DNA of 32,972 bases. Origin: a virus. The notes under the pieces were generated by a model. The model was not told where the DNA came from and made no database searches. It worked only from the letters and a program-made list of their open reading frames with translations. A program made the translations under genes and the position numbers. Positions 525 through 30,495 of this stretch are shown here, piece by piece; position 1 is the first letter of the stretch, and the number at the start of each line of letters is the position of its first letter. The stretch spans positions 1 through 32,972 of IMG/VR virus record IMGVR_UViG_3300005830_000341. One strand, written 5' to 3'.

Positions 525-531
525 GCAAATC

Positions 532-2153: not shown

Positions 2154-2164
2154 GATCATCCTCC

Positions 2165-5005: not shown

Positions 5006-5012
5006 TAGTCTC

Positions 5013-5464: not shown

Positions 5465-5470
5465 GACTTT

Positions 5471-5629: not shown

Positions 5630-5807
5630 TTGGAAGAAATACCGCGCGTTGAAGTTAAGCGACGTCATACGTCCCGGAGATCGCCACGTCTTGGCCGACG
5701 ATACGATGCTGCCTCCGTTCAGAAAGGGCCGGAACAGTTTTGTGGGCTTGACGGTCGGTCAAACGGGCCACTTTGCGGTGGTGCGCAGGAAAGGAAACGG
5801 AATATGA
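5619..5807 (+). CDS. small conserved phage protein
   Basis: 62 residues, MKVDWKKYRALKLSDVIRPG at the start and a conserved-looking end with FVGLTVGQTGHFAVVRRK. The pattern 'L-x-x-x-D-x-I-R-x-G-D' followed by a small beta-rich tail is one I associate with frequent tiny phage proteins of unknown role. Its stop overlaps the ThyX start (ATGA), so it is co-translated with the nucleotide-metabolism pair. No catalytic residues can be proposed. Confidence 0.55.
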   Translation: MKVDWKKYRALKLSDVIRPGDRHVLADDTMLPPFRKGRNSFVGLTVGQTGHFAVVRRKGNGI

Positions 5808-6544
5808 TTGAAAAAGGACACAAGATCACGGTGCACGAGCACGGATTCGTGCGTTACATAGACCACATGGGTTCGGACGTCTCGATCGTCGAGGCGGTCC
5901 GGGTCTCTTACAAATCCCCATCGAAGGGACCTGAAGCGGACAAGAAGCTGCTCGGCTATCTGCTCCGAAACCGGATATGCAAAGTGAAGTTCAACATCAG
6001 GATGCCGATCTTCGTGATGCGGCAATACATACGGCACCGGATGCAGAATGTCAACGAAGTGTCCGCCCGCTACACGGAATTGCCGGACGTGTTTTTCCTT
6101 CCCAAAGTCTGGAGGTGGCAGGACGTCAAGAACAAGCAGAGCAGCATGAAGGGGGAGCGGCAGCTTGAGATGCCCATGGCGCGTCGCTTGTTGGATAGGG
6201 ACGGGTGTGATTATTACACGAAAGATATCGGCGCGTGCGTGGAGGATTTCTACGAGCGCGCCTACGAATTGTATTTGCGGCTCCTCGAAGGAGGCGTCTC
6301 CCGGGAGCAGGCCTGCGTCGTGCTTCCCCTCGGCATCTACACAGAATTCTATTGTTGCTGGGACTTGAACAATTTGCTGAAATACTTTGCGCTCCGCGAC
6401 CACCCTCATGCCCAAGCGGAGCATCAAGACTACGCCCGGGCGATGAAGCAAATCACCGCGGAGGTCTTTCCCTGGACGATGGAGCTTTATGAGTCGGGAA
6501 GATTTCGGTGGAGCGCAACAATGGACGAAACCCCCACGTTATGA
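5804..6544 (+). CDS. thyX: flavin-dependent thymidylate synthase ThyX
   Basis: ThyX methylates dUMP to dTMP using methylene-tetrahydrofolate, FAD and NADPH. The start ATG 5804 overlaps the preceding stop; the open frame upstream of it is not coding. The 246-residue length is usual. The diagnostic RHRx7S motif is intact: R77-H78-R79, seven residues, then S87 within NVNEVSARYTELPD. The N-terminal VRVSYKSPSKGPEADKKLLGYLL and the preceding FNIRMPIFVMRQYIRHR also match the family. The adjacent MazG-like gene suggests a small nucleotide-pool module. Nothing in it points to hydroxymethylase activity, so ordinary dTMP supply is the best reading. Confidence 0.95.
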   Translation: MIEKGHKITVHEHGFVRYIDHMGSDVSIVEAVRVSYKSPSKGPEADKKLLGYLLRNRICKVKFNIRMPIFVMRQYIRHRMQNVNEVSARYTELPDVFFLPKVWRWQDVKNKQSSMKGERQLEMPMARRLLDRDGCDYYTKDIGACVEDFYERAYELYLRLLEGGVSREQACVVLPLGIYTEFYCCWDLNNLLKYFALRDHPHAQAEHQDYARAMKQITAEVFPWTMELYESGRFRWSATMDETPTL

Positions 6545-8568: not shown

Positions 8569-8976
8569 ATGGCAAACGTTCTATACAACCCAGCAAAAAA
8601 GAAATTCCTTGACGCCGACATTGACTTGTTGGTGGACAACATCAAAGCAGTCTTGGTGGACTTGGCGGACTACACGTTTAATATCGCGGACGAATTCTTG
8701 TCGGACATACCCGTGGCGGGCCGCGTGGCGATCAGTGACAATTTGGACAATAAATCCACCACGAACGGCGTGTTCGACGCGGATAATGCCGTGTTCGCGC
8801 TTGTCTCCGGGGACGTCAGCGAGGCAGTGGTTCTTTTCAAGGACACCGGCAGTCCCGCCACTTCTCCGTTGATTCTTTATATCGACAGTGCTACGGGCCT
8901 GCCGATCACACCCAACGGGGCTAACATCAATTTGCAGTGGAACGACGGAGCGAATAAAATCTTCGCCTTGACATGA
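8569..8976 (+). CDS. conserved phage virion-associated protein, function unknown
   Basis: 135 residues. The sequence has a family look I recall from many phage structural regions: DNIKAVLVDLADYTFNIAD, FLSDIPVAGRVA, then a beta-rich half with VVLFKDTGSPATSPLILYID and a final LQWNDGANKIFAL. That composition (many beta strands, no catalytic pattern) suits a virion decoration or fibre-base protein. Its leader is A-rich with no Shine-Dalgarno site (ataatcaaaacactATG), unlike its coupled neighbours, which hints at independent and strong translation. It overlaps the next gene by ATGA. Structural role is inferred from context. Confidence 0.6.
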   Translation: MANVLYNPAKKKFLDADIDLLVDNIKAVLVDLADYTFNIADEFLSDIPVAGRVAISDNLDNKSTTNGVFDADNAVFALVSGDVSEAVVLFKDTGSPATSPLILYIDSATGLPITPNGANINLQWNDGANKIFALT

Positions 8977-10109
8977 AGCAATTCACAATCACTCGACAAC
9001 GTAGTCCGCACGGCGGCCGCCTGGAACGCTGGCTCGGCGCGCCGGTGGTGGAGCAGCTCTCACGCTCGATGCGAGACTGGTATGGACCGGCCATCGCGGT
9101 CGGCGGGGTTCCGGGCGCAGTCTTCGTGCACAAAGGCGGTGATTTCTCCGGCGTGTTAAAAAGCGGGCAGGTTCTCAATGGCTTGGATTGGGCCTTGGGC
9201 CGGATGGACAGAATCATCCAGCATTTTGGGCGTTCGCAACGTCAGCGCTGCAATGCCGGCTTTGCCTCGCTCTCGGACTTGATTGCGGAATGCACGGCGG
9301 GGAAGTGCCGTGAGTTTTTCTATAACAAAACCGGCGCGACGGGTGTCGTTGGTGTGACCAATTCTCTATGGGGACTCGGCGCTCATCCGGCGGCAGGCGC
9401 GAATGCGTCCAACGCTCCCGGCGGAGATGCTCCGACGGATGCGACGACGGGGGCGGTGGCGTTCGATAACGTGTCGCCGGATACGAGGCACGTGGTCAGC
9501 GCGTGGGTCGTGGCGAGCGTGGCGGGACAAAACCTGTTGTGTTATGATCGGATTTTTCAGGTGAACAAGACGATGGCGTCCACTGCGAACGAGTCTGTGA
9601 CCGGAGTGCCTACCCGTTATCAAAGCGTGACGCCGGGCGCGGCGGATTCCGCTGAAGGAAATTTCCTATTTGTTGAAGTGGGCGGAACCGCATTGGCGGC
9701 GACGGCGCACAATTGGGATACGTCTAATCTTTACACGAACCAAGCGGGAACGGGCAGCCGGGCTTTGCCGTCGCTCACAGGAAACTCGGGAGCCATCGTG
9801 CGGCGGCTTGACCACCCGGTGCAGCAATGGTTCGCGCCGCTGGCCTCGGGAGATACGGGTATTCAGCAACTCGATCAAATGCATTGCTCCGCCTCAGTGG
9901 CCACGGGCGTCATCAACTTCGTCATCGGTCATCCGATCTGCTGGATTCCGGTGCCGATCATCAACCTGATCTGTCAGGCGGACTACATCAACACGGCGTT
10001 CGGCTTAATTAGGATTTTTGATGACGCGGCGCTGGCCTTTCTCGAAGTGATGAAACCGGCGACGGGCGCGACGACCTACAATATCGGTGTGAGAAGCGTG
10101 GCGGGATGA
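8973..10109 (+). CDS. conserved phage structural protein (fibre/virion type), function unknown
   Basis: 378 residues, translationally coupled to its upstream neighbour (ATGA). I recall relatives in uncultured phages: CREFFYNKTGATGVVGVTN, then LCYDRIFQVNKTM, VTGVPTRYQ, AEGNFLFVEVGG, LDHPVQQWFAPLASGDTGI, and VATGVINFVIGHPICWIPVP. The text is rich in Gly, Thr, Ala and short beta strands and has no obvious enzyme motif. It ends with FLEVMKPATGATTYNIG. Its place between the portal and the head morphogenesis gene, followed by a repeat protein, suggests virion surface components. I give no precise function. Confidence 0.6.
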   Translation: MKQFTITRQRSPHGGRLERWLGAPVVEQLSRSMRDWYGPAIAVGGVPGAVFVHKGGDFSGVLKSGQVLNGLDWALGRMDRIIQHFGRSQRQRCNAGFASLSDLIAECTAGKCREFFYNKTGATGVVGVTNSLWGLGAHPAAGANASNAPGGDAPTDATTGAVAFDNVSPDTRHVVSAWVVASVAGQNLLCYDRIFQVNKTMASTANESVTGVPTRYQSVTPGAADSAEGNFLFVEVGGTALAATAHNWDTSNLYTNQAGTGSRALPSLTGNSGAIVRRLDHPVQQWFAPLASGDTGIQQLDQMHCSASVATGVINFVIGHPICWIPVPIINLICQADYINTAFGLIRIFDDAALAFLEVMKPATGATTYNIGVRSVAG

Positions 10110-11245
10110 ACAACTGGCGTTTCATCGGCAACAAGTATTGCAGCATCACAGCGTTGCAGTTTGCGCCGACGTTGACGGTTCACGATCCGAATCCGCCATT
10201 GACGTTGGAGAATCCTAGTGCGGGAGGTCTTCAGACGATTGTTTTCAACAGCATTGTCCAGTCTGTGGTCGTGGGAACGCTGATGTTGAAACAGGAAATC
10301 TATCCTGGAGATATTGTTCAAGGTATTTTCATCAGTGCTCCCTCTTTGGAATCGGGGTTGTTGCTTGGGAACGTTGCGCAGACCGTTTCAGTCAATTCTC
10401 CTATTCTGACGCAGGAGATTTATCCGGTGAGTGTTGCCCAGACGGTTGTTGCTGGCACGTCTTTATTGGAATTGAGCGTTGCTTTGAACAGCATCTCTCA
10501 AGGCATCACCGTCGGGCAACCCGTGTTGGAATTGAGTATCCGATTTGATGGTGTTGTTCAGGTTGTGTCGGTGGCAAGTCCCACGTTGGAATTAAACATA
10601 TTCTTTGACAGCGTTCCTCAAGGCCTTGTTGTCGGGCAGCTCACTCTGGTTCAGAGCATCTCATTTGATAGTCTCGGACAAATCGTGTTCCCGGGAAGTC
10701 CCGCGTTGGAGTTGAGTGTTCAGTTTGTCAGCGTGGTTCAGCCTACTGAGATCGGAACGCCGACTTTATTCGTGGAGGGAGGAGCCGGGACGCAGACCAT
10801 TTCATTTGATAGCGTGGTTCAGTTCGTGTTTGTGGGAACGCCGATTCTGTCTGTGCAGACCGAGCCGGAGCCCGAACCGCCGTTGATCCGTTTCGGCAGC
10901 GGCGGAGGTTGGGTCCGTCCTCTGAAATTGAAAGAGGAACCAGAGCCTCCGGCGCAGATAATTTCCGTTCCTTCGGTGATTGTTGTTACGGAGGTGGGCA
11001 GTCCCACTTTGATGCAAGATGTTCTGTTTGTTTTTCCGACTTTTGTGGGATTGCGGAGTGAAAGATCCGACGAGATTCCGCCGGCGGCAAAAGCGAAAGT
11101 AATTCATTCGATTCAACCGGTGGTCCTGTCTATTCAAACGATCAAGATGAGGTCTTGTTCGTTGAAAGCGGATTACGGAATACCCCGTTTGCGTCAGGAA
11201 CTTAATGTGGGAGAATTGATCGCCTTGCTGGAAATGATTGAATAA
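10106..11245 (+). CDS. repeat protein with eleven 20-residue units (putative fibre or surface protein)
   Basis: 379 residues. After a 42-residue head, residues 43-222 are nine back-to-back units of exactly 20 residues, consensus Q-x-I-x-F-D-S-V-x-Q-x-V-x-V-G-x-P-x-L-E. After a 7-residue spacer comes a tenth unit (230-249), and after a 34-residue Pro/Glu and Gly-rich linker an eleventh (284-303). Fixed length, alternating hydrophobic residues and a conserved Gly-x-Pro turn suggest a beta-solenoid or stacked beta-hairpins. The motif resembles the 'I-A-S-A-E-A-F-G-T-P-T-V' repeats I recall from other phage virion proteins. No signal peptide is evident. The gene is coupled to its upstream neighbour by ATGA. 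Confidence 0.72.
   Translation: MNNWRFIGNKYCSITALQFAPTLTVHDPNPPLTLENPSAGGLQTIVFNSIVQSVVVGTLMLKQEIYPGDIVQGIFISAPSLESGLLLGNVAQTVSVNSPILTQEIYPVSVAQTVVAGTSLLELSVALNSISQGITVGQPVLELSIRFDGVVQVVSVASPTLELNIFFDSVPQGLVVGQLTLVQSISFDSLGQIVFPGSPALELSVQFVSVVQPTEIGTPTLFVEGGAGTQTISFDSVVQFVFVGTPILSVQTEPEPEPPLIRFGSGGGWVRPLKLKEEPEPPAQIISVPSVIVVTEVGSPTLMQDVLFVFPTFVGLRSERSDEIPPAAKAKVIHSIQPVVLSIQTIKMRSCSLKADYGIPRLRQELNVGELIALLEMIE
10232..11014 (+). repeat. 60-bp-period coding repeat array
   Basis: Eleven 60-bp units encode 20 residues each: nine contiguous units from 10232 to 10771, one at 10793-10852, and one at 10955-11014. The DNA copies have diverged strongly while the protein pattern (…Q…VG.P.L) and the length have been kept, so the array is old and selected at the protein level rather than a recent slippage product. 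Copies 7, 8 and 10 are the most alike (ttyTTTGAYAGYS-type core for F-D-S). Confidence 0.8.
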
Positions 11246-11533: not shown

Positions 11534-12538
11534 ATGCCTTACACTATCGAACATCGTCCGGCGAAAGGGAAGCCACCTTGGGTGAAGGTGGACGCCGACG
11601 GTCATATCGTCTCGAGGCACAAGACCAAAGCCAAAGCGGAGGCGTCCATCCGCGCTTACTATGCGAACAACGCGCGGCGTCCCAATCCTCTGAGGGTTGA
11701 TCCCACCCGCACCAGCACCCTACGGCGCCGGTTCATGACCGAGGTGCGCAAGCGATTCAGAAAGATCATAGCTCAGCTGAGAGACTTTATCGTGGAGAAG
11801 GACGCACTCGCTCTGCGCGAACGCAAGACGCTGCTGACGATGGCCCTGGAGCGGGAGTTTGAGTTCAGAACGGACGCGGGGAAGCTGGAAGCGTTCAATG
11901 ATTGGTTACAGACTCAGATCGAAGCCGAATTGATCTCGCCTGTTCCTGGTGGAAGGGCCGATCAGCCCTGGACCATTGAGTTCATCGAATCGGCCTACAA
12001 AAAGGGACAGCTCAATTCTTACCTATCGTCGAAACAAAGTCAGTTGTTCGAGGACTTGGGAGTCGGCGAGATGAGTCAGGAAGAGTTTCTGCGCAGCGCG
12101 TTCATCGTGCCCGAGGCAAGGTCCAAGGTGCAATTGCTCGCAACGCGGACGCTCGAAGATTTGAAGGGCGTGAGCCGCACGATGGCGACCCGAATGAGCA
12201 GGATTTTGAGTCAGGGTCTCATCGACGGAAGTGGTCCTGAGGTCATCGCCAAAGAGATGACGGCCCAGATCAAGTCGTTGACGAAAGCCAGGGCTTTGAC
12301 CATCGCCCGGACCGAGATCATCAACGCGCACTCTGAAGGACAACTCGACGCGTTTGAGAAATTGGGCGTCGAAGACGTGGGCGTGAGAGCGGAATGGTCG
12401 ACGGCGCTGGACGACCGCGTGTGTCCCGAGTGCGAGAAGAACGAGGGCACTGTCTTCACTATTGATGAGGCGAGGGGATTGATCCCGTTGCATCCTAATT
12501 GTCGTTGCGCCTGGATACCTTTCGTGCCCGACAGATAA
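11534..12538 (+). CDS. head morphogenesis protein, Mu gpF / SPP1 gp7-like
   Basis: 334 residues. The C-terminal MuF-type domain is clear: KARALTIARTEIINAHSEGQ (251-270), then DDRVCPECEKNEGTVF (293-308) and IPLHPNCRCAWIPF (317-330), with the CxxC and HPxCRC cysteine/histidine set at C297, C300, H320, C323 and C325. These proteins are minor head components that bind the portal during procapsid assembly. The first ~47 residues (VKVDADGHIVSRHKTKAKAE then RAYYAN) look like a separate small module that I have also seen as free-standing phage proteins, so the gene may be a fusion. The middle is helical and charged. Confidence 0.88.
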   Translation: MPYTIEHRPAKGKPPWVKVDADGHIVSRHKTKAKAEASIRAYYANNARRPNPLRVDPTRTSTLRRRFMTEVRKRFRKIIAQLRDFIVEKDALALRERKTLLTMALEREFEFRTDAGKLEAFNDWLQTQIEAELISPVPGGRADQPWTIEFIESAYKKGQLNSYLSSKQSQLFEDLGVGEMSQEEFLRSAFIVPEARSKVQLLATRTLEDLKGVSRTMATRMSRILSQGLIDGSGPEVIAKEMTAQIKSLTKARALTIARTEIINAHSEGQLDAFEKLGVEDVGVRAEWSTALDDRVCPECEKNEGTVFTIDEARGLIPLHPNCRCAWIPFVPDR

Positions 12539-12546
12539 TAGCGTGA

Positions 12547-13266
12547 ATGGATCCTAATCAGAAAGTGACTTTGACGATCACGCATTGGAACCGCTTCCCG
12601 ATGCTGGTCGAGTGCGTCGCCGGGGTGAGATCGGATCCCAGGATCGGCGAGATCGTGATTTCGGATGACGCTTCGACGGACGGGTCGTGGGAGCAGATGC
12701 AGGAGTTTTTCAAACACAACGACAAAGTCAAATTGTTCCGCAACGAGACGAATCTGGATTGCTACAGGAACAAGGCCGAGGCGTTGAGGCGTTCCCAGGG
12801 ATGGTGCATTCTTTTTGATTCGGACAACATCATCACGGCCGATTATTTGAATGTGCTCTATGCCTTGCCCGTGTGGGACGCGAAGATGGCCTATTGTCCC
12901 GACTTCGCCGAGCCCGAATTCGACTATCGTTCCTTTGCGGGAATGACTTTCGATTTGAGGAACATCTCCCTTCACGCGCTAGACCGCCGCTTCCGGTGCG
13001 CGTTGAACACGGCGAACTATTTCATGCACAGGGATGACTACCTGGAGGTCTGGGACGGCACGGTTGATCCTCACACGGCGGACAGCATTTACCAAAACTA
13101 CAACTGGATCAAATCCGGCAGAAGACTTCACATCGTCAAAGGACTTCGTTATCGTCATCGAGTGCACGATCAGAGTCATTACAAATTGAACATCGGCAAG
13201 ACGGGTCGTTTTCATCAAGAAGTGGAGATGAAGTTGTTGCAATTGAAACCTCAGAAATCAAGATGA
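12547..13266 (+). CDS. family 2 glycosyltransferase
   Basis: 239 residues with the GT-A/GT2 plan: TLTITHWNR at the start, EIVISDDASTDGSW (35-48) for the nucleotide site, and CILFDSDNII (87-96) giving the DxD-like metal site. The second half holds acceptor-side sequence (HALDRRFRCALNTANYFMH). It opens the sugar cassette nine bases after the head morphogenesis gene. Donor and acceptor are unknown. It overlaps the following fucosyltransferase-like gene by ATGA, which implies co-translation. Confidence 0.88.
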   Translation: MDPNQKVTLTITHWNRFPMLVECVAGVRSDPRIGEIVISDDASTDGSWEQMQEFFKHNDKVKLFRNETNLDCYRNKAEALRRSQGWCILFDSDNIITADYLNVLYALPVWDAKMAYCPDFAEPEFDYRSFAGMTFDLRNISLHALDRRFRCALNTANYFMHRDDYLEVWDGTVDPHTADSIYQNYNWIKSGRRLHIVKGLRYRHRVHDQSHYKLNIGKTGRFHQEVEMKLLQLKPQKSR

Positions 13267-14030
13267 GAAAAATAGGAATGGTTCGGCCCAGGACATACGG
13301 AAGAATGGGTAACTTTCTTTTTCAAGTCGCCTGCGCCGCGGCGTATGCCTGGCGTCACGGCATGCCTTTCACCGTGCCGAGCACCACCCGGGATCCGAAA
13401 TGGAATCCGATTTACTTGCAGCACTTGGTTGATCCGTTGTGGGATCCCAAGCTGCGTGAATTGCGTCTCGAAGAAAAGGTTTTCTCCTATTACGAATTGC
13501 CGTTCAAAGAGGAGTGGCGCGACAGGAACATCATACTCGATGGTTATTGGCAAAGCGAAAAGCATTTCATTGAATACAGGGATCGAATTCTGCAGACGTT
13601 CGGTTTTGATTGGCAAATGATGCCGGGCTTGGTTTCGGTGCACGTTCGGCGCGGAGATTATTTGACCATTCAAAAGGGGGGCATGTTCAAGCATCCTCCC
13701 GTACCCAAGGAATGGATCGAAGCAGCGATGAGGCGGTTCGACGGCGCCAAGTTCAGGTTCTTCTCGGACGACATCGCTTGGTGCAAGGAGCAATTCGGAG
13801 GAAGAAGTGACTGCGCTTTTTCGGAGGGGCAGGACGAAGTCAAAGACTTGGAGCACATGAGTTGGTGCGAGCATCAGATCTGCAGCGCGAGCACCTTCAG
13901 CTGGTGGGGTGCTTGGCTGAACCGGAATCCCAAGAAACGGATCATCATGCCCAATCATTGGCTCACTCCGGGTTGGAACGGAGGGCTGGACACGAAGGAC
14001 GTCGTGCCCGAAACATGGGAGAGACTCTGA
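13263..14030 (+). CDS. GT11 alpha-1,2-fucosyltransferase-like enzyme
   Basis: 255 residues with the full GT11 signature: GRMGNFLFQ (13-21), LDGYWQSEKHF (92-102), VSVHVRRGDY (124-133), FRFFSDD (164-170) and ICSASTFSWWGAWLN (206-220). HVRRGDY is the GDP-binding motif of the alpha-1,2/alpha-1,6 fucosyltransferase superfamily. GT11 enzymes use GDP-L-fucose, but fucosyltransferases can also take GDP-L-galactose, its 6-hydroxyl analogue. The epimerase at 17195 would be a source of that donor, and no GDP-fucose synthesis genes are visible. The start overlaps the preceding stop (ATGA). Confidence 0.92.
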   Translation: MRKIGMVRPRTYGRMGNFLFQVACAAAYAWRHGMPFTVPSTTRDPKWNPIYLQHLVDPLWDPKLRELRLEEKVFSYYELPFKEEWRDRNIILDGYWQSEKHFIEYRDRILQTFGFDWQMMPGLVSVHVRRGDYLTIQKGGMFKHPPVPKEWIEAAMRRFDGAKFRFFSDDIAWCKEQFGGRSDCAFSEGQDEVKDLEHMSWCEHQICSASTFSWWGAWLNRNPKKRIIMPNHWLTPGWNGGLDTKDVVPETWERL

Positions 14031-14554
14031 TGCCCCTTCCCAGCGTGGAATTCTTGAAGAGTTTCAGAAACACCAGTCACATCTTCGTCGAAACGGGCAG
14101 TCATCAAGGCGACGGGATCCAAATGGCCCTCGACGCGGACTTCCTGGCGATCTACAGCACGGACGTCTCGGCTTATGCCTACGGCTATTGCTGCGGCCGT
14201 TTCAGGGACCAACGCACGGTCGTGAATCTGTTCAATTTGGATTCGAGGATCTTCCTGGAGCAATTCCTATCCCACTTGACCGCGCGGGCGGTGTTTTGGA
14301 TTGACTCGCACTGGTGCAATACGGACGGAGGCAGGCAGGAAGACGTGCCTTTGATGGAAGAGTTGACGATCATGAGGAAACAAGAGCTCACGGGACACAC
14401 GCTTCTGATCGACGACGTGAGGTTGTTCGGCACAGATCATTACCCGAATTTGAAGCGCGTGGTGTCCAAGATCATGGCCATGAATCCAGGTTACGTGATC
14501 AGCTTTCATGACGGATTGGAATTCAAAAACGACATACTCGTCGCAAAAATATGA
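14030..14554 (+). CDS. Rossmann-fold methyltransferase-like protein
   Basis: Start ATG 14030 (TGATG overlap) gives 174 residues. The start FVETGSHQGDGIQMAL (about 19-34) resembles the glycine-rich SAM loop, YSTDVSAYAYGYC the following acidic strand, FWIDSHWCNTDGG the motif-4 region with a D-x-H, and HTLLIDDVRLFG the last conserved strand. This layout is seen in methyltransferase and cephalosporin-hydroxylase-like (CmcI) relatives of unknown substrate in polysaccharide clusters. It is coupled to the GT25 gene by ATGA. Catalytic ability is not certain; it may be a sugar O-methyltransferase. Confidence 0.62.
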   Translation: MPLPSVEFLKSFRNTSHIFVETGSHQGDGIQMALDADFLAIYSTDVSAYAYGYCCGRFRDQRTVVNLFNLDSRIFLEQFLSHLTARAVFWIDSHWCNTDGGRQEDVPLMEELTIMRKQELTGHTLLIDDVRLFGTDHYPNLKRVVSKIMAMNPGYVISFHDGLEFKNDILVAKI

Positions 14555-15309
14555 TCATCGAAAACAGTTACATCAGTTACGTCAATCTCGATCACCGGAC
14601 GGATCGGCTCAAACACATGAAGGAGATGATGGCGCGGGTGGGTTTGAACGCCGTCAGGACCCGGGGCATGCTTCCCGAAGAGGTCGTGAGGAACGGATTG
14701 GCGTCGCCCGACAGGCTGCGCGTGATGCAGAACCGCACGCCGGGCGCAATAGGTTGCCACTTCAGCCAGGTGAGCATCATGAAGGAAGCACTCGCCCGCG
14801 GTCAACATGCCTTTGTGATGGAGGATGACTTGGTGTTCTGCAAAGACTTCAAGGAAAGAATGAAGATCGTGGACGTGTTCTTCAATCAGCGTTCTTGGGA
14901 CGTGCTCTGGTTGGGAGGCACGGTGCACATTAGTCCCCCCTGGTGGCACAAGACCACCTTGGGAAGAGATTTCGATTTGACCGACAATCCCAGGATGATC
15001 AGGACCTATGGCGCATTCTCGACGCACGCCTACATCGTGAATGTTGCCAGCATACCCATGGTGCTGAAAGGACTGGACGACATCTTGCACTTGAGTATGG
15101 GCATAGATTGGGCGTTCATACAGATGGAGCCTAATATGCAGACTTTCATGTTTGTCCCTGGCTGCGTTATTCAATACGATAATACTTCGGACATCGGGCG
15201 CGGAGTGACGACCTTCAGCGGATTCAAGAAATTGGGCGCTCATTGGTATGCGGAACGGATGGAAGATTTTGATCCTGAAACCTATGATTGGAGTGTGAGA
15301 CTAAAATGA
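14551..15309 (+). CDS. family 25 glycosyltransferase (LPS/LOS-type)
   Basis: 252 residues. The family 25 marks are present: YVNLDHRTDRLKHM (10-23), GAIGCHFSQVSIMKEAL (65-81), and AFVMEDDLVF (87-96) with the EDD metal site. GT25 enzymes include LgtB/Lex-1 galactosyltransferases of bacterial lipooligosaccharide and collagen beta-galactosyltransferases. In this cassette it would add a later sugar, perhaps galactose. The gene overlaps both neighbours by ATGA and so belongs to the same translation unit. Confidence 0.85.
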   Translation: MIIENSYISYVNLDHRTDRLKHMKEMMARVGLNAVRTRGMLPEEVVRNGLASPDRLRVMQNRTPGAIGCHFSQVSIMKEALARGQHAFVMEDDLVFCKDFKERMKIVDVFFNQRSWDVLWLGGTVHISPPWWHKTTLGRDFDLTDNPRMIRTYGAFSTHAYIVNVASIPMVLKGLDDILHLSMGIDWAFIQMEPNMQTFMFVPGCVIQYDNTSDIGRGVTTFSGFKKLGAHWYAERMEDFDPETYDWSVRLK

Positions 15310-16010
15310 CTGCACAAGAAATGTTGAAATCGTTGCCTTCTGAATTCGCCGCGCTTTACGGCGAAGTCGTGACGTTGGATATTTACAAGATCAGGAACCT
15401 ATCCTTTGTTCCCGACGTGGTGGTGGACGTCGGCGCGAACGTGGGCTTTTTCACTGGTTTTGCGCGGGAGTTGTTTCCCGATGCGCTCATAGTCGGGCTT
15501 GAACCCCATCCTGCCAACTTTCAATATTTGGAGCGTTGGTGCGCGGGTGCGAACACGATCTTGATCAACAAGGGATTGGGATGCGGCCGACTTTACCGGG
15601 CTACGACCGCGGCCAATGGCTCCGGAGAATCCTATTTCTCGAGCGGCTTGGGCTATCCTTATGAGATGGTATCTGCCGCCGTGCGTAAGCGGTTGAACGT
15701 GGAGGACACCAAGGTGCAATCTATCACGCTGGAGCAATTGTTCCTGGATCATTGTCCCGAAGGCGCGAAAGTCCTGCTGAAGGTGGATTGCGAGGGCGCG
15801 GAGAACAGCATCTGGGAGGATCCGTTCTCGTTCGACGCGTTGGCGTCCTCGACTTACATCGCCATGGAGCTTCATGATTACGGCATGACTCAATATGAGG
15901 CTTCGGAGGTGATGCGCATCACCAATCAAGCCTTGGTCAAATTGCACAGAACGCATCACGTCGAACGAAACGGCGTCTACCTGTGGGCGCTGAAGCACAG
16001 GATCACTTGA
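15306..16010 (+). CDS. FkbM family methyltransferase
   Basis: Start ATG 15306 (ATGA overlap); 234 residues. SAM site VVVDVGANVGFFTGFA (about 39-54), EPHPANFQYLERW as the next conserved strand, and the FkbM hallmark LLKVDCEGAENSIWED (about 161-176). This is a typical full-length FkbM O-methyltransferase, likely acting on a sugar hydroxyl. It is followed after 3 bases by another methyltransferase-like gene. Compared with the FkbM gene at 16559 it is only distantly similar, so the two probably methylate different positions. Confidence 0.88.
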   Translation: MTAQEMLKSLPSEFAALYGEVVTLDIYKIRNLSFVPDVVVDVGANVGFFTGFARELFPDALIVGLEPHPANFQYLERWCAGANTILINKGLGCGRLYRATTAANGSGESYFSSGLGYPYEMVSAAVRKRLNVEDTKVQSITLEQLFLDHCPEGAKVLLKVDCEGAENSIWEDPFSFDALASSTYIAMELHDYGMTQYEASEVMRITNQALVKLHRTHHVERNGVYLWALKHRIT

Positions 16011-16013
16011 ATT

Positions 16014-16565
16014 ATGAACGAGATTAAGCATCGCAGTGAGTTGTGGAAGCTGCTTGAGGACAGAGCGGATGATATTGTGCGCATCGCCGAGATCGGAGTG
16101 GCCGAGGGACGTTTCAGCGCCGAGATCATCAATTGGCCACTGCCTTACAAACGCGTCTACCTGGTCGACAGGTGGATGCAGCATGAAGGACAAAAAGGCG
16201 ATGGAGGATTTCCTCAAACGTGGCACAACCGGAATTTCGAGCAAGTCAAGGAGCTCTGCTCCCGCTACACCTTTGCTCAATGGTTCAAGATGGATTCGGT
16301 GAAGGCAGCCGGAAACTTTCCCAACGGAAGTTTTGATCTCGTTTACATTGATGCCAATCATGTGGAAGTGGCGGTGCTGGCCGACAGCGAGGCCTGGTAT
16401 CCGAAAGTGAAACGAAATGGGTTCATGGCCTTTCACGATTACGAAAACAGGAATTACGGCGTGAACAAAGCCGTTCGGCTCTTCGCAAAGAAACATGGCT
16501 TTGAGATTCATTCCATTCCCGAAAACCATTCCAATGATGCAGGAGCCTGGTTTCAATTATGCTAA
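16014..16565 (+). CDS. class I SAM methyltransferase (Methyltransf_24-like)
   Basis: 183 residues. IAEIGVAEGRFSAEI (about 24-38) is the SAM loop, RVYLVDRWM the acidic strand, FDLVYIDANHVEVAVLADSE (about 108-127) the family-typical YIDANH motif, and GFMAFHDYE the following strand. Methyltransf_24 proteins are common in antibiotic and glycan clusters as O-methyltransferases, some of them metal-dependent. It overlaps the next FkbM gene by 7 bases (ATGCTAA). Substrate unknown, likely a glycan or nucleotide-sugar. Confidence 0.8.
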   Translation: MNEIKHRSELWKLLEDRADDIVRIAEIGVAEGRFSAEIINWPLPYKRVYLVDRWMQHEGQKGDGGFPQTWHNRNFEQVKELCSRYTFAQWFKMDSVKAAGNFPNGSFDLVYIDANHVEVAVLADSEAWYPKVKRNGFMAFHDYENRNYGVNKAVRLFAKKHGFEIHSIPENHSNDAGAWFQLC

Positions 16566-17185
16566 TTCCTTTTGATCATCTTTTCGAGCACTACAACATA
16601 CGTCCTTCCGGGGTGCTTCATCTGGGCGCCAACACGGGACAAGAAGCCGAAGTCTATCATGGACGAGGTGTCAAACGGGTGATCTGGGTCGAGGCCATTC
16701 CCGAGTTGTTTGAGAAGCTGAAGCGCAACGTCGCGCGCTGGCCTCAGGACATCACTTATTGCGCATGCGTGAGCGACGTCAATGATGAGCGCGTGCGGTT
16801 TCAAGTCGCCAGCAACGGCGGGCAATCATCTTCATTTTTGGAATTCGGGACTCACGCGGTGGCTCATCCGTCAGTCAGATTCATTCGCAATTTCTTCGCC
16901 ACCACGATCAGAGTCGACAGACTCCTGGCCGAGGAGGAGATCGAAGGCAGTTGGTTCCTCAATGCTGATCTTCAGGGTGCGGAACTCAAAGCGTTGATCG
17001 GCATGGGTCAGTTGTTGTGGAAGTTCGATCATGCCTACATCGAAGTGAACGAGGACGAGCTTTACAAAGGCTGCCCACGCACGAAGGACGTGGACGAATA
17101 CCTGGCTCAATTTGGATTCGTCGGCGTGGAGACCAAGATGACGGGCGCGGGCTGGGGGGACAAATACTACGTGAGGACGAGATAA
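16559..17185 (+). CDS. FkbM family methyltransferase (second copy)
   Basis: 208 residues. It begins MLIPFDHLFEHYNIRPSG and has VLHLGANTGQEAEVYH as SAM loop, VIWVEAIPELFEKL as the acidic strand, and NADLQGAELKALIGMG where FkbM proteins have D-x-E-G-x-E, so the usual glutamate of that motif is replaced (D-L-Q-G-A-E). Other phage and cyanobacterial homologues share this L-Q-G variant as far as I recall. The role is likely glycan O-methylation. A 9-base gap with an AGGAG site separates it from the epimerase. Confidence 0.82.
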   Translation: MLIPFDHLFEHYNIRPSGVLHLGANTGQEAEVYHGRGVKRVIWVEAIPELFEKLKRNVARWPQDITYCACVSDVNDERVRFQVASNGGQSSSFLEFGTHAVAHPSVRFIRNFFATTIRVDRLLAEEEIEGSWFLNADLQGAELKALIGMGQLLWKFDHAYIEVNEDELYKGCPRTKDVDEYLAQFGFVGVETKMTGAGWGDKYYVRTR

Positions 17186-17194
17186 TAGGAGCAT

Positions 17195-18202
17195 ATGAGA
17201 GACTTTACACTGGTGTGCGGCGCGGGAGGCTTCATCGGAGGCCACCTCGTGAAACGATTGATTGAATTGGGAATGGACGTGCGTGCCGTTGACGTGAAAC
17301 CGTTGGACAGATGGTTTCAATATTCCGGATTTGCGCAGAATTTACCCGAATGCGATCTGCGTAAGTTGTCCGTGTGCGATGACGTGATGCGGAACGTTCG
17401 TCACGTCTACAACCTGGCAGCGGACATGGGAGGAATGGGCTTCATCGAGTGCAACAAAGGGTTGTGCATGCTCTCGGTCCTGATCAACACGCATTTGCTG
17501 ATCGCAGCCCAAAAACACGAGGTCGAGAGGTATTTCTTCGCGTCGAGCGCGTGCGTCTATAAAGCCGAGGCACAATGCCTGGAAGATCCCAAACCACTCG
17601 TTGAATCGGACGCCTATCCCGCAATGCCGGAGGACGGATACGGCTGGGAGAAATTGTTCAGCGAAAGGATGTGTCATCACTTCACCCAGGATTTCAACCT
17701 AGAGACGCGGGTTGCGAGATTGCACAACGTCTATGGTCCGATGGGCACATTCAGGGGAGGACGCGAGAAGGCGCCAGCCGCGTTGTGTCGGAAGATCGCC
17801 TGGGCAAAACTGAACGGCGTCAGCGAGATCGATGTCTGGGGAAACGGGCATCAGACCCGCACGTTCACGTGGATCAACGATTGCGTCGAGGGCATCTTGC
17901 GCATCATGGCGAGCGGCGTCGTCATTGAACCGATCAATTTGGGAAGTTCCGAAATTGTTTCGATCAATAACCTCATCGATATCATCGAGGGCATCGCCGG
18001 CTACCGCGTGAAGCGGCGTTATATTTTGGATGCTCCGAAAGGCGTGCGCGGACGCAGCAGTGACAACACGAAGATCAAGGCCCTGCTCAATTGGGAGCCC
18101 TCCATGAACTTGCGGACGGGAATGAATATCACCTATGACTGGATTGAGAGTCAACTAAACATGGACAACCAGAGAGTCTATGGAGAAACACAAAGCAGCT
18201 GA
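17195..18202 (+). CDS. GDP-mannose 3,5-epimerase-like sugar-nucleotide epimerase
   Basis: 335 residues of the extended SDR family. GAGGFIGG (9-16) binds NAD; AADMGGMGFIECN (76-88), SSACVY (117-122), the catalytic YxxxK as YGWEK (149-153), and LHNVYGPMGTFRGGREKAP (176-194) match plant GDP-mannose 3,5-epimerase closely, as do the later NGHQTRTFTWINDC and GVRGRSSDNT segments. That enzyme turns GDP-D-mannose into GDP-L-galactose (and GDP-L-gulose). It carries a good SD (taggagcatATG). In this cassette it would supply the donor for the GT11 enzyme. C131/K203-type catalytic partners should be compared by alignment, since I place only the main motifs by eye. Confidence 0.9.
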   Translation: MRDFTLVCGAGGFIGGHLVKRLIELGMDVRAVDVKPLDRWFQYSGFAQNLPECDLRKLSVCDDVMRNVRHVYNLAADMGGMGFIECNKGLCMLSVLINTHLLIAAQKHEVERYFFASSACVYKAEAQCLEDPKPLVESDAYPAMPEDGYGWEKLFSERMCHHFTQDFNLETRVARLHNVYGPMGTFRGGREKAPAALCRKIAWAKLNGVSEIDVWGNGHQTRTFTWINDCVEGILRIMASGVVIEPINLGSSEIVSINNLIDIIEGIAGYRVKRRYILDAPKGVRGRSSDNTKIKALLNWEPSMNLRTGMNITYDWIESQLNMDNQRVYGETQSS

Positions 18203-18335
18203 TCGGAAACAACGGAAGCAGGGCGCGTTCGTGGTGGCGACCGAGGAGCAAACCGAAGCCCGCCGCACTTACGTCGCCGTCATAAGGAAGGTCGCCGAGG
18301 AGATTTGGAAGAGGAAGACACCATGTTCTCATTGA
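18180..18335 (+). CDS. 51-residue basic hypothetical protein
   Basis: A short ORF from ATG 18180 to TGA 18335 that overlaps the end of the epimerase gene by 23 bases and the start of the next glycosyltransferase by 13. The product is charged and helical (MEKHKAADRKQRKQGAFVVA at the start, ending with VAEEIWKRKTPCSH). The frame bridges an otherwise empty 120-base stretch, which is why I think it may be real. No family recognised. Confidence 0.42.
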   Translation: MEKHKAADRKQRKQGAFVVATEEQTEARRTYVAVIRKVAEEIWKRKTPCSH

Positions 18336-19147
18336 CGACCATCACCCCCTATTGGAGACGGCCGGCGACTCTGAGATTATGGCTCAACGCGGTGAGTGAT
18401 GCTTTGCTTCCCGGGATGAAAAGCATGGTGGTGTTCGTGGGGGATCCTATTCCGGACTGGGTGCGACCGTGGCGTGAACTGCCTCAATTCGTCTTCGTTC
18501 ATACCAAAGACGTTCCCGGAGATCGCAGCATTGCTCATTATCACAACTTGGGCGCCGCGCAAGCTGATACGGAATGGATAATGAAGCTGGACGTGGACAC
18601 GTTTCCGCACGTAACGTATTTTCATCATCTGGAGTCCATCGTGCAGACGGCCGGAAAGTGCGAATGGTTCAACGGCGGCATGATGTATCTGACGCAAGCG
18701 GCGTCCTCATCATATCTTTGTCAGCCCATCCTGGAAGAGGATTATGACCACATCGTTCACAACTGGTCGAGTTATTCGTCGAACGGTTACCCGCATCCCG
18801 CGGCGACCAATTTTGTTTGCAGACGGAAAGACTACTTGTCGTTTGGTGGTTGCGATTCGAGGTTCAAAGGCTATGGTTGGGAGGATTACAGTCAAATTTA
18901 CATGCTCGAACGTCATCAATTGGGAAATGATCCCTTGCCTGGGCCCATCACCCTTCAAAACGTCACTCAGCGGTGCCGCGATGAGATCAGTCGCAGAAAG
19001 GCGTTGGAGTTGTTTAGGAGGAACGGCAAACTCTGCTTGTTTCATCATTGGCATCCCACGAATACGGATCAATTCTATCGCAACGCCAGGATCATGGGTG
19101 CGAATCGGCTGGTGCTGCTGGAGAACATACTCACTTCGCGCAAATGA
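18323..19147 (+). CDS. galactosyltransferase-like (GT7 C-domain) glycosyltransferase
   Basis: Start ATG 18323, with GAGGAAG upstream; the TTG at 18305 is less likely. The 274-residue protein has the N-terminal GT-A start FSLTTITPYW, a DVD metal site (IMKLDVDTFP, about 86-95), WFNGGMMYLT, and a C-terminal block FGGCDSRFKGYGWEDYSQIY (174-193) that matches the galactosyltransferase 7C pattern (G-x-D-x-R-F-x-G-Y-G-x-E-D) of chondroitin-polymerase-like and beta-1,4-galactosyltransferases. A sugar transferase role is secure; the sugar is likely Gal or GalNAc. It closes the cassette. Confidence 0.82.
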   Translation: MFSLTTITPYWRRPATLRLWLNAVSDALLPGMKSMVVFVGDPIPDWVRPWRELPQFVFVHTKDVPGDRSIAHYHNLGAAQADTEWIMKLDVDTFPHVTYFHHLESIVQTAGKCEWFNGGMMYLTQAASSSYLCQPILEEDYDHIVHNWSSYSSNGYPHPAATNFVCRRKDYLSFGGCDSRFKGYGWEDYSQIYMLERHQLGNDPLPGPITLQNVTQRCRDEISRRKALELFRRNGKLCLFHHWHPTNTDQFYRNARIMGANRLVLLENILTSRK

Positions 19148-19551
19148 AAGTCACTGACCAAACTGTCCTGGCCCGTTACAAACTTACGGGTATGAAAGAT
19201 CACATGATCGCTGAGAAGATGGGCATCAGCGTCGCCGAGGTTCAGAAATTATGGACCGAAATGCGGGAAGCCGCGCACGCATCCGATCCGTCGGGTTACC
19301 AGGATTTGATTGCGCACATGAATGTCTTGTGTTATCAATACCAATTGTTCGGAGAGTCTTTGAAGGCGATCTGCAGACAGCTCGGATGTACCGTCACAGC
19401 GTCGGACCTCAAGGCCCAGATCGTGAAAGATGACCCGGACAAGACCGCGTCCAACATTCTTCAGCACTACATAGTCACCAAGGCTTTCGTCAAAACCGAC
19501 CCGGTGGAGGCGCTTGAGAAGCATCTCCACAGGATCATCGAGGGGAACTAA
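19144..19551 (+). CDS. small HTH-like protein of unknown function
   Basis: 135 residues from ATG 19144 (ATGA overlap with the glycosyltransferase). The first part (VLARYKLTGMKDHMIAEKMG then ISVAEVQKLWTEM) looks like a small helix-turn-helix of the RNA polymerase sigma or homeodomain-like class. The remainder is helical with a mid-region QYQLFGESLKAICRQLGC. A regulatory role or a packaging accessory role would both be possible. It lies just before a 61-base gap leading to the protease gene. Confidence 0.55.
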   Translation: MKVTDQTVLARYKLTGMKDHMIAEKMGISVAEVQKLWTEMREAAHASDPSGYQDLIAHMNVLCYQYQLFGESLKAICRQLGCTVTASDLKAQIVKDDPDKTASNILQHYIVTKAFVKTDPVEALEKHLHRIIEGN

Positions 19552-19612: not shown

Positions 19613-21103
19613 ATGAACGAACGGTTTACTCGGTTAGTTTGTAACCTACTCCCGTCAGGCTGCCGTTTCGAGACCCTCGAAGATCGTGAACACATCGTTG
19701 TCCCCATGGTGATCCTTACTGAGGGCGTTCACGCGGGTTCGATGGGGCCACTTTACTACCCGAACGGCGAGCTTTCAAAGACGCCCGAGGTGTGGAACCA
19801 CAAGCCCATCGTCGTATATCATCCTTCGATGAACGGACAATCAGTCTCGGCGTGCGATCCTGTTATCCTCAACAGCCGCAAGGTGGGCGTAATGCTCAAC
19901 ACTAAATACGAGAAAGGGAAATTGAAGTCCGAGGCTTGGATCGAAAAGACGCTCGCCAACAAAGTCGATGACCGCGTGATGACGGCCATCGAGAACAAGC
20001 AGATGATGGAGCTTTCGACGGGAGTGTTCATAGACGTGGACGATGAGTCGGGCTCCTGGAAGGAAGAAGAATATGTCGGGGTCGCGCGCAACTTTCGTCC
20101 CGATCATCTCGCGTTGCTTCCAGATCAGATCGGAGCGTGCTCAATCAAAGACGGCGCCGGGTTCCTGCGTAATCAACGGGGCCAGGACATTCGCAGGGTT
20201 GACAACGAGATGTCTTTCTCGAACGTTCACTCGGCGTTGTGCAAGGCGCTGAAGGAGAAGTTTCCCGACAACGGCATTTCGTATGCCTACATCTGTGACG
20301 TTTATGCTGATTTCTTCATTTACGACTACAACGGCAAACTGTGGCGCTTGGGCTACGCGATGGACGGCGACAAGGTCACGGTCTCGGACGAGGCGCCTGT
20401 TGAGGTCGTGAGGGCAACTGAATACCGGACTGTTGATGGTGCCTACGTGGGCAACCGGAGCCAGTCCACCAACCAAAACAAAACCAACATGAACAAAAAA
20501 GAAATGGTGGATGCCATCATTACGGCCAACGCGGGTTGGGCAGAAGCTGACCGTGAGTCGTTGATGGCACTAAATGAGGGCCAGTTGAAGCTCATTCAAT
20601 CGGCCGCAACTCCGAAAAAGAAAGACGAAGAGGACATGGAGGCTGATGAGGCCAAGAAGAAAGGCGCCAAGGCTTCCAACTCCGCTCAGCCGGCTCAAGC
20701 TCCCGTCACCGCGGCAGCCGCGCCCGCGCCCGCAGCCGCTCCTGCGGCCGCTCAGGCACCCAACGTGGTCTCGATTCAAGACTACATCCGGCAAGCTCCG
20801 AAGGAGATGCAGGAAGTCTTGAACAACTCTCTCGACGTTTACAACGCCGAGAAGGTGAAGTTGATCGACGCCATCATCGCGAACAAGAACAACGCGTTCA
20901 CGAAGGAGGACCTCAACGCTCGTCCGCTCAATGAGCTGCGCAACATCGCGCGACTGGCGGTGGTCGAAGTGAGTGCACTGGAGCACAACCGACTGATTCC
21001 CAATTATGCCGGTCAGGCACCCGTGATCGCTCAGGGTGGAGGAGAAGAACCGCTGGAAGTTCCGGTGTTGAACTTCACGCGGAACGGCGCCAACAAAAAC
21101 TAA
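19613..21103 (+). CDS. prohead protease (DUF2213-like) fused to scaffold
   Basis: 496 residues. N-terminal ~185 residues: NHKPIVVYHP (62-71), ELSTGVFIDVD (133-143) and RPDHLALLPDQIGACSIKDG (162-181) are the DUF2213 prohead-protease pattern. Residues ~200-280 form a second small domain (ISYAYICDVYADFFIYDY). From M293 onward comes a helical, charged part, a Pro/Ala-rich linker (about 351-383) and a final helix-rich domain, as expected for a scaffold. Proteases of this type cleave capsid and scaffold during maturation. The 61 bases upstream hold an aaaagg site and no clear promoter. Confidence 0.83.
   Translation: MNERFTRLVCNLLPSGCRFETLEDREHIVVPMVILTEGVHAGSMGPLYYPNGELSKTPEVWNHKPIVVYHPSMNGQSVSACDPVILNSRKVGVMLNTKYEKGKLKSEAWIEKTLANKVDDRVMTAIENKQMMELSTGVFIDVDDESGSWKEEEYVGVARNFRPDHLALLPDQIGACSIKDGAGFLRNQRGQDIRRVDNEMSFSNVHSALCKALKEKFPDNGISYAYICDVYADFFIYDYNGKLWRLGYAMDGDKVTVSDEAPVEVVRATEYRTVDGAYVGNRSQSTNQNKTNMNKKEMVDAIITANAGWAEADRESLMALNEGQLKLIQSAATPKKKDEEDMEADEAKKKGAKASNSAQPAQAPVTAAAAPAPAAAPAAAQAPNVVSIQDYIRQAPKEMQEVLNNSLDVYNAEKVKLIDAIIANKNNAFTKEDLNARPLNELRNIARLAVVEVSALEHNRLIPNYAGQAPVIAQGGGEEPLEVPVLNFTRNGANKN
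20471..20488 (+). promoter_or_regulatory. A/C-rich leader for an internal scaffold start
   Basis: The 18 bases before ATG 20489 contain only A and C and lack any Shine-Dalgarno match. The same kind of leader, with a CAAAACA core, precedes the genes at 8569, 21149 and 21635. Confidence 0.45.
20489..21103 (+). CDS. probable nested scaffold protein from an internal start
   Basis: In frame inside the protease gene, ATG 20489 (M293 of the long protein) is preceded by an A/C-rich, SD-less stretch (aaccaaaacaaaaccaac) that looks like the leaders of other structural genes in this window rather than ordinary coding sequence. Initiation there would give a 204-residue product containing only the helical scaffold half. 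The lambda C/Nu3 arrangement is the known parallel. The protein sequence across the leader (NRSQSTNQNKTN) is low-complexity, as expected if the DNA is also serving as a leader. Confidence 0.55.
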   Translation: MNKKEMVDAIITANAGWAEADRESLMALNEGQLKLIQSAATPKKKDEEDMEADEAKKKGAKASNSAQPAQAPVTAAAAPAPAAAPAAAQAPNVVSIQDYIRQAPKEMQEVLNNSLDVYNAEKVKLIDAIIANKNNAFTKEDLNARPLNELRNIARLAVVEVSALEHNRLIPNYAGQAPVIAQGGGEEPLEVPVLNFTRNGANKN

Positions 21104-23444: not shown

Positions 23445-23962
23445 TGAATGCGTCTCGGGCAGGATATACAATCCATTTGCTGAAGAAATTGACAAAGGAA
23501 GCTGACGAAGAGGATGTGCTTCAATTCTTCCGTTCATCAACATCGCCCGTTGATCCACCAGGAGATCTCGAACGGCCGGCGCTTCATTTGGACACCACCA
23601 CCAAATTAGTCTATGAGTGGAATATCAAGAATCAAATGTGGCGAGTTGAGACTGCGCACCGGCACTACACGAAAACGGAGGTGATTTCACCGGAGCTTCC
23701 TTATTCTTTGTTGGCTCCCGTCAGATTGGTCATTGAAGTCATCTTCACTTTGAATCCTACCGCGACAAAACCCGCAGTGCTCACTGTCAGCCGTAGTGGA
23801 GGAATTTCGGACGTTTCTATTAGTGCGATGGGCACGTTGAATGATCCCACGCGTCATGCTTCCTTTCGCGTCTCACCAGGAGACATGATCACGTTCACTG
23901 ACGCTTCGGAGGCTCCCGCGGTTGCCACAATTGATCTGCTCATCATCTTTGAGGAGGAATGA
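23444..23962 (+). CDS. hypothetical protein, beta-rich C-terminal half
   Basis: ATG 23444 (TGATG overlap) follows a strong SD (gaggaggttt) and gives 172 residues. Residues ~40-75 (PVDPPGDLERPALHLDTTTK and VYEWNIKNQMWRVE) look like a small beta unit with Trp residues, as in fibre or carbohydrate-binding modules. The second half (RLVIEVIFTLNPTATKPAVL to FEEE) is Thr/Val-rich beta sequence. It is not a connector I recognise. It may be a virion surface or neck accessory protein. Confidence 0.55.
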   Translation: MNASRAGYTIHLLKKLTKEADEEDVLQFFRSSTSPVDPPGDLERPALHLDTTTKLVYEWNIKNQMWRVETAHRHYTKTEVISPELPYSLLAPVRLVIEVIFTLNPTATKPAVLTVSRSGGISDVSISAMGTLNDPTRHASFRVSPGDMITFTDASEAPAVATIDLLIIFEEE

Positions 23963-24798
23963 ATTTACCCTTTGACCTACATAAGGAATTGATGAAACTC
24001 CGGAGACTTGAATTGAAGGCTTTGGAAGCGGACAATGCCGTTCTTAGGCAACGGTTGAAGATTTTTCCTCCCGTCGAAGAGGAAGTCAAAAAAGCCTTGA
24101 CAGGTATGGATCGGATCAGGAGTGAGGCGATCGAAGATGCTGTTAAGCGCAATGGAACTTTCACCGAAGCCGCCAAAGAGTTAGGCATAGGTCGTTCGAC
24201 GGTTTATGGATATTACAGAGGGAAGAAGAAAGTGAACGGAGTCGCGCGCGTCATGGTCAGTTTGCTCATAGTGATGATTTCGTTGATCGGTTGCGTCTCG
24301 TCGGGATCCAAGTTCGCATACTCGTTGTCATCGATGTCGACGCCTTCATTCTTGCTGCCTAGTTTGACGCGAGTTTCTGCTATGTCTTTGTCTTCGGAAG
24401 ACACAGGACTGATTCCGCCTCCCGCCACGGCCAGGGTCATCGTCGCATGGGATCCATCGCCTGATTCTACGGTCACCGGTTACATATTTCACTACGGAGG
24501 AACAACGAGAAATTACACCAACGTGACGGACGTTGGAAACAGTCTCAGCATAACGGTCACGAACATGGTGATCGGAAGCACCTATCACTTTGCGGCGACC
24601 GCATACAACCATATCGGACTTGAGTCGGTGTTCAGTGATGAATTGATCTACACCATTCCTCCGTCAAAACTTTGGATTACTCTGCTGGGAAGCGATACGT
24701 CGGACGGAGGCTGGACGCCGATCTCCACGAACTCCGTTGTGCCCACGGCGCCGATGCGATTTTTCATTCAACAGATCAAATGGAGCAACTCGCCATGA
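23959..24798 (+). CDS. HTH - lipoprotein signal - FnIII fusion protein
   Basis: 279 residues, continuous and in frame. Residues 1-50 form a charged coiled-coil helix. Residues 56-90 match a Fis/NtrC-type helix-turn-helix (AIEDAVKRNGTFTEAAKELG then IGRSTVYGYYRGKK). Residues 98-112 are hydrophobic and end in the lipobox LIGC (C112). Residues 157-234 are a fibronectin type III domain (VIVAWDPSPDSTVTGYIFHY and YHFAATAYNHIG). The end (WTPISTNSVVPTAPMRFFIQ) resembles modules of secreted Verrucomicrobiota proteins. An internal GTG 24232 after gagggaagaagaaa would yield a free lipoprotein of 188 residues with a normal signal peptide. Confidence 0.65.
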   Translation: MNLPFDLHKELMKLRRLELKALEADNAVLRQRLKIFPPVEEEVKKALTGMDRIRSEAIEDAVKRNGTFTEAAKELGIGRSTVYGYYRGKKKVNGVARVMVSLLIVMISLIGCVSSGSKFAYSLSSMSTPSFLLPSLTRVSAMSLSSEDTGLIPPPATARVIVAWDPSPDSTVTGYIFHYGGTTRNYTNVTDVGNSLSITVTNMVIGSTYHFAATAYNHIGLESVFSDELIYTIPPSKLWITLLGSDTSDGGWTPISTNSVVPTAPMRFFIQQIKWSNSP

Positions 24799-25532
24799 TG
24801 ATCAAAAAGAAACCTTTGGGTAGCTATGCCCACCAACTTTGGTTTCCGTCGAAAGAATGGAACGGTCAAAAAGCGTTCTTGATCGGCGGAGGTCCTTCGT
24901 TGACGGGTTTTGATTTCAGTGTTTTGAAGGGTCGAAACACGATAGGATGCAATGATGCATATCATCTGGGAAGCGAAGTGATAAAATTCTGCGTGTTCGG
25001 CGATGCGAATTGGTGGCAGCACAATAAGTTCAAACTCGAGAAGTTCGAAGGACGTCTCGTGACGAACGCCCCTTGTTTGATGCATCTCAATTTGCCAAAC
25101 ATCCATCGCACCAGGCGTTTGCGGGACGGCATTCATAGCGGCAATACATTGGGATGGAATTATTCCACGGGAGCACTCGCCATCAACGTCGCCGTTTCAT
25201 TGGGCGCGTCCGACATCTACCTATTGGGATATGACCTCACGAACAAGGGCGATCAATCCCATTGGCACAATCACAATGGCAAAAAGACTCAGGAGTTTGC
25301 CTTCGCGCGTTTCACCAGGGGCTTTGCGTGCGTCAGGGCGTCGCTTCCAGAAGGCGTCAGAGTCTTCAACGTCACTGACGGATCATCCCGTTTGAATAGC
25401 TTCGAGCGCATATCCTTCGCCGATCTTTACAAAGTCTTGATTGATGGGATCCGCGTCGAGATCAAACCAGAGGTTCAACCTATTTTGTCTCCTGCAACGG
25501 GCGTGGACGTTCGTTCCGATCTGGCTATATGA
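24795..25532 (+). CDS. DUF115 / sialyltransferase-like Rossmann protein
   Basis: 245 residues from ATG 24795 (ATGA overlap). KAFLIGGGPSLTGFDFSVLK (26-45) and NTIGCNDAYHLG (48-59), then FGDANWW (68-74), GWNYSTGALAINVAVSLGAS (120-139) and DIYLLGYDL (140-148) match the motif order of DUF115/MAF-type and GT42 (CST-I) sialyltransferase-like proteins found near flagellin glycosylation and capsule genes. Phages carry similar ones as 'norphogenetic'-type unknowns. It could add a nonulosonate or be a structural relative. Its place between connector and neck genes shows glycan chemistry also enters the morphogenesis line. Confidence 0.68.
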   Translation: MMIKKKPLGSYAHQLWFPSKEWNGQKAFLIGGGPSLTGFDFSVLKGRNTIGCNDAYHLGSEVIKFCVFGDANWWQHNKFKLEKFEGRLVTNAPCLMHLNLPNIHRTRRLRDGIHSGNTLGWNYSTGALAINVAVSLGASDIYLLGYDLTNKGDQSHWHNHNGKKTQEFAFARFTRGFACVRASLPEGVRVFNVTDGSSRLNSFERISFADLYKVLIDGIRVEIKPEVQPILSPATGVDVRSDLAI

Positions 25533-30493: not shown

Positions 30494-30495
30494 TC

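Follow-up and report, generated by a model that had tools for sequence, protein, structure and literature searches.

A glycosyltransferase and methyltransferase cassette among the head genes of an uncultivated phage recurs in several phage lineages and may act on virion proteins

In the mycobacteriophages Che8 and Corndog, phage enzymes glycosylate the capsid and the tail tube, according to reports on these systems (PMC12363180, PMC11600133, PMC12619734; Freeman et al. 2023 as cited therein). These reports describe glycosylation of the Che8 capsid (PMC12363180), glycans attached C-terminally to capsid and tail tube (PMC12619734), and three transferases adjoining an O-methyltransferase in Corndog (PMC11600133). 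The Che8 proteins gp108-110 belong to the classes GT2 plus Methyltransf_24, GT2/PF10111-like and GT25, and their genes lie in tandem at the right genome end. Related gene sets are found in cyanomyophages. In S-CAM9, a GT11 gene adjoins a gene for an epimerase resembling GDP-mannose 3,5-epimerase (GME), and S-SRM01 carries FkbM, GT2, GT25 and GT11 together.

The window analysed here is the whole IMG/VR record IMGVR_UViG_3300005830_000341, a linear record of 32,972 bases from an uncultivated phage, which probably represents a fragment of the phage genome. Between a MuF head protein and a head protease it contains a plus-strand run of genes (12547-19147, Table 1), in which tandem GT2- and GT25-class glycosyltransferases stand together with methyltransferases, as in the Che8/Corndog type. 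All classes of Che8 gp108-110 (GT2, GT25, PF10111-like, Methyltransf_24) occur in this cassette. In contrast to the Che8 genes, the cassette lies among head genes, and it contains GT11, GME and FkbM, none of which was matched by the three Che8 genes. The likeness to Che8 appears to be one of class, as tblastn of the cassette against the Che8 glycosyltransferases including gp110 revealed no similarity and hhalign of the window GT25 with gp110 yielded a part-length match (47 columns, E 1e-4, probability 57). Moreover, the Che8 acceptor has been demonstrated, whereas that of the window cassette is predicted. With the cyanomyophages the cassette shares the pair of GT11 and GME seen in S-CAM9 and the four classes assembled in S-SRM01. 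However, the cyanomyophage clusters (S-CAM9, S-SRM01, S-SCSM1; 30-43% identity) are located among auxiliary metabolic genes and not among head genes, and the methyltransferase set of the window was not seen in the two regions compared.

Table 1. Positions of the cassette genes and their borders in the window, with the matches on which the assignments are based.
Feature	Position	Strand	Support
MuF-type head morphogenesis protein (left border)	11534..12538	+	PF04233 9e-18
GT2-type glycosyltransferase, DxD-like LFDSDN	12547..13266	+	Pfam PF00535 3e-15
GT11 (alpha-1,2-fucosyltransferase superfamily)	13263..14030	+	PF01531 2e-22; phrog_2644 5e-36
ORF 3, predicted SAM-dependent methyltransferase-fold protein	14030..14554	+	AF2 model; start set at 14030
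GT25 glycosyltransferase, MEDD motif	14551..15309	+	PF01755 1.5e-6
FkbM methyltransferase (first)	15306..16010	+	PF05050 2.6e-9; ATG 15306 overlaps GT25 stop
Methyltransf_24 protein	16014..16565	+	PF13578 3e-13
FkbM methyltransferase (second)	16559..17185	+	PF05050 9e-14
GDP-mannose 3,5-epimerase (GME)	17195..18202	+	Epimerase 2e-37; plant GME 2c59 6e-85
Tiny ORF, probably no gene or not conserved	18180..18335	+	no support
GT-A glycosyltransferase, PF10111-like, last in cassette	18323..19147	+	PF10111 1e-7
Small HTH-like protein closing operon block	19144..19551 (about)	+	weak phrog_686 0.008
Head maturation protease (right border)	19613..21103	+	DUF2213 2e-5; phrog_2229 head maturation protease 1.5e-5

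The sequence-only reading had described ten ORFs forming one coupled unit between the head morphogenesis protein and the protease. The coupling is confirmed by the overlaps and short gaps at the junctions (in order -4, -1, -4, -4, +3, -7 and +9 nt), and nine of the ten ORFs are well supported in the order given before. The tiny ORF is not; it has no homologue in the relatives compared and no Pfam or PHROG family above the cut-off, and in the related locus L178 the GME gene directly overlaps that of the last transferase. It should therefore be treated as unproven. The HTH-like gene between cassette and protease overlaps the last transferase gene by 4 nt and is kept beside the cassette in relatives. 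A blastn search of the cassette against cultured phages gave no matches.

The Pfam families and folds, together with the shared orientation of the cassette and the flanking capsid genes, agree with the earlier proposal of a unit for sugar-chain synthesis and methylation, and the cassette is very likely the maker of a methylated sugar chain. As before, we infer an ordered, methyl-capped oligosaccharide. GT11 possesses the motifs HVRRGD and FSWWGAW. ORF 3, formerly labelled a Rossmann protein, has no Pfam match and belongs to a family without a Pfam model (homologues 46-51% identical); its AF2 model (pLDDT 86), with Foldseek matches to TrmR and O-methyltransferases, assigns it to the SAM-methyltransferase fold. 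The last ORF, previously called GT7C-like, is indeed a glycosyltransferase and can be refined to a GT-A enzyme on the basis of PF10111 and of Foldseek matches to chondroitin polymerase (K4CP), WrtF and GalNAc-Ts (AF2 pLDDT 93; motifs KLDVD and GYGWEDY). A PDB sequence search returned nothing useful for GT11, Methyltransf_24 or FkbM.

The epimerase was correctly recognized in the sequence-only reading. Its match to plant GME far exceeds that to the next family (about 3e-24), and the equivalents of C145, Y174, K178 and K217, which we take to be the catalytic residues of plant GME, are all present in the alignment, which identifies it as a true GDP-mannose 3,5-epimerase. The predicted product is GDP-L-galactose/GDP-L-gulose. 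Unlike its plant counterpart, this enzyme is encoded by a phage and within a glycosyltransferase operon.

Relatives were picked by the major capsid protein (MCP) and by GT11 and compared with the window proteins, which gave ten clade members including the window (lineage A). GT11, Methyltransf_24, the second FkbM protein and the last transferase were found in all ten. GT2 and GT25 occur in five of the nine relatives, the ORF 3 protein in three and the first FkbM protein in two, and GME is found at the same position in the window, L178 and L184. This comparison of gene order, which had been suggested along with the original description, showed that a homologous core is kept as a block. As this core stands at the same position in relatives, the arrangement is not due to chance. 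The site also exists in an empty state: in L031 the gap between MuF and protease genes is about 1.3 kb and holds one short plus-strand ORF, and the region is similarly compact in L167, both being more distant relatives with the same head genes and no cassette. In G022, a distant and divergent relative, the cassette is located after a tail gene. The divergence of MCP, portal and cassette inside the clade is star-like. A search of genome contigs for the host matched MAGs only, with contigs assigned to Bacteroidales, Planctomycetaceae, Thermoplasmata and other groups; the nearest matches were on short contigs.

The proteins encoded at 8569-11245 were considered as acceptors acquired together with the cassette. 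This was rejected; in the relatives, the neighbourhood of the cassette yielded no homologue of them, and these proteins are therefore not required. One protein of this stretch (10106-11245, 379 aa) consists of repeated beta-like units (VVQ..VVG.P.L) and has neither a PHROG match nor a homologue in the loci searched. MuF-type head proteins with long C-terminal or inserted domains were seen in the relatives L023 (975-3311), L184 (13-3123) and L170 (22-2244); by eye, L023 seems to combine MuF with toxin-like domains and L170 to contain an intein-like insert in MuF. Between the capsid and tail genes of the window, an MptE-like protein (24795-25532; phrog_4603 'alpha-2,3-sialyltransferase') is encoded, which is kept in 27 relatives, some of them without the cassette, and is perhaps an older virion glycosyltransferase. 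A single ORF at 23959-24798 has an HTH-like N-terminal part together with a lipoprotein-like signal and an FN3-like domain and possibly represents two genes or a misplaced start. In the tail region, a receiver-domain-like (CheY-like) protein (30490-30918; assigned by eye) has a relative in G009.

The cassette is not peculiar to the window phage; homologous blocks occur in several lineages. A scan with a profile of the second FkbM protein, followed by clustering of the neighbouring genes, gave 79 module loci, in which the families of GT11 (67 loci), Methyltransf_24 (62), GT25-like proteins (55), GT2 (52) and GME (50) recur; an exostosin-type GT47 joins the module in some lineages. Grouped by our own clustering of head genes, about 20 loci belong to lineage A, 28 to B, 11 to C, one (L228) to D, two (L198 and L199, the latter from record G024) to E and three to F; 13 others and the divergent G022 remain. 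The portals of the lineages fall into different PHROG families (A 146, B 6547, C 11226, D 7376, E 15528-like). None of the phages that carry the cassette in a head module is cultured. The combination of GME and GT11 recurs in independent phages, cyanophages among them.

The placement of the module varies between lineages. It lies between MuF and protease genes in A, between TerL and portal genes in B, between the genes for a ClpP-like head protease and the portal in C, beside the portal gene on the opposite strand in D, upstream of a portal-like protein gene in E, and between a TerL-like gene and an apparent tape measure gene in F. In 51 of the 79 loci, at least one flank of the block has a hallmark head gene no more than three genes away, and in 32 both flanks do; many of the remaining loci are truncated or have head genes outside the marker set. 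In Maribacter phage Panino and Flavobacterium phage elemoA, which are cultured and related to lineage B, TerL and portal genes adjoin (distance 3-8 nt), whereas about 5.7 kb separate them in L203; the block was therefore probably inserted in lineage B or lost in these relatives. The FkbM and GT11 trees cluster mainly per lineage with some exchange: FkbM of E is nested inside C, and B, C and E are intermixed in the GME tree, where the window, L178 and L184 form one group (100/100) away from the B/C/D set. Thus, the block passes mainly by descent inside each lineage, with some exchange among lineages.

Phage DNA, a virion protein and a host surface glycan had been put forward as acceptors. The virion is favoured because, in several lineages that differ in their portals, the module sits among virion genes and because the Che8 capsid-glycosylation genes fall into the same Pfam classes; the empty sites point in the same direction. 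This recurrent placement suggests that these phages put sugar onto their own particles. On the other hand, the position in a late operon could merely time expression, the classes GT2, GT25 and Methyltransf_24 are widespread, and the G022 cassette after a tail gene as well as the cyanophage GT11 and GME outside the head module speak against it. On balance, it is rather likely that the cassette glycosylates a virion protein.

Among the alternatives, remodelling of a host surface glycan (LPS, capsule or S-layer glycan), for example for a block of superinfection or for release, survives best and is nevertheless unlikely. The cassette classes are typical of LPS/O-antigen pathways, late expression could serve such remodelling too, and GME and GT11 of cyanophages have been interpreted as cell-wall modification (PMC9602691). 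However, none of the cassette proteins resembles a membrane protein or shows transmembrane segments, and neither an initiating lipid-carrier transferase (PF02397) nor a Wzx flippase (PF01943, the flippase type that the search covered) was found in 21 records. The lack of such membrane machinery weakens this option, and repeated placement inside head genes would not be expected from it.

Less probable still is an extension of sugars on modified bases of the phage DNA, once a TAGT has acted on hydroxymethylated pyrimidines. In T2 and T6, gentiobiosyl-hmC is made by TAGTs (PMC13216743), and the window encodes a strong TAGT match (PF20691, 3e-41) beside the terminase; this TAGT is 35-45% identical to relatives in phages such as T2/T6 and Aeromonas T4-like phages. 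It is located about 10 kb from the cassette and occurs independently of it: G002 and G009 have the cassette without a TAGT, as do all 15 further records tested, and G010 has a TAGT without the cassette. This dissociation in both directions weakens the DNA option. In addition, no TET (searched without a positive control) and no ThyA-type hydroxymethylase were found in the relatives searched, whose records may be partial. The region 3-6544 around the terminase, with FkbM (3-524), a UDG-superfamily protein (532-1002), the TAGT (978-2153) and ThyX (5804-6544), is likely a separate DNA-modification locus, and because of these genes the DNA of the window phage may well be modified. Finally, it is very unlikely that the block is mobile cargo carried in the late operon solely for expression, with a tail fibre or a soluble metabolite as its target instead of the head. 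In most lineages its neighbours are portal, protease or terminase genes, even if the G022 block after a tail gene and the lineage F block beside the apparent tape measure would agree with this reading.

If a virion protein is the acceptor, the cassette would act as a cytosolic glycan-building module that is co-expressed with late head genes. Its epimerase would convert host GDP-mannose to GDP-L-galactose (or GDP-L-gulose), which the fucosyltransferase-like GT11 could take as an analogue of GDP-L-fucose. GT25, GT2 and the GT-A enzyme might start and extend a chain, presumably short and ordered, on the virion protein during its synthesis, candidates being capsid, portal or another head or tail protein, and hydroxyl groups of this chain would be capped by the FkbM, Methyltransf_24 and ORF 3 methyltransferases. 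Such a glycan would alter the particle surface and may thereby influence adsorption or stability or help the phage to escape surface-binding defences. More tentatively, the cassette could be a transferable head-operon module that several phage lineages acquired at different sites and that places a multiply methylated glycan containing L-galactose or L-gulose on the capsid or portal; if true, this would be a virion glycan chemistry that is not known from phages.

Glycosylation of phage virions has so far been documented for a few mycobacteriophages. The module points to an unusual sugar donor and to specific, testable phage groups, some of them related to cultured phages of Flavobacteriia; the portal of lineage B is related to those of Flavobacterium and Cellulophaga phages. 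If virion proteins are indeed the target, sugar-coated virions would be far more common than these few cases suggest, given that the module recurs inside head genes in several lineages.
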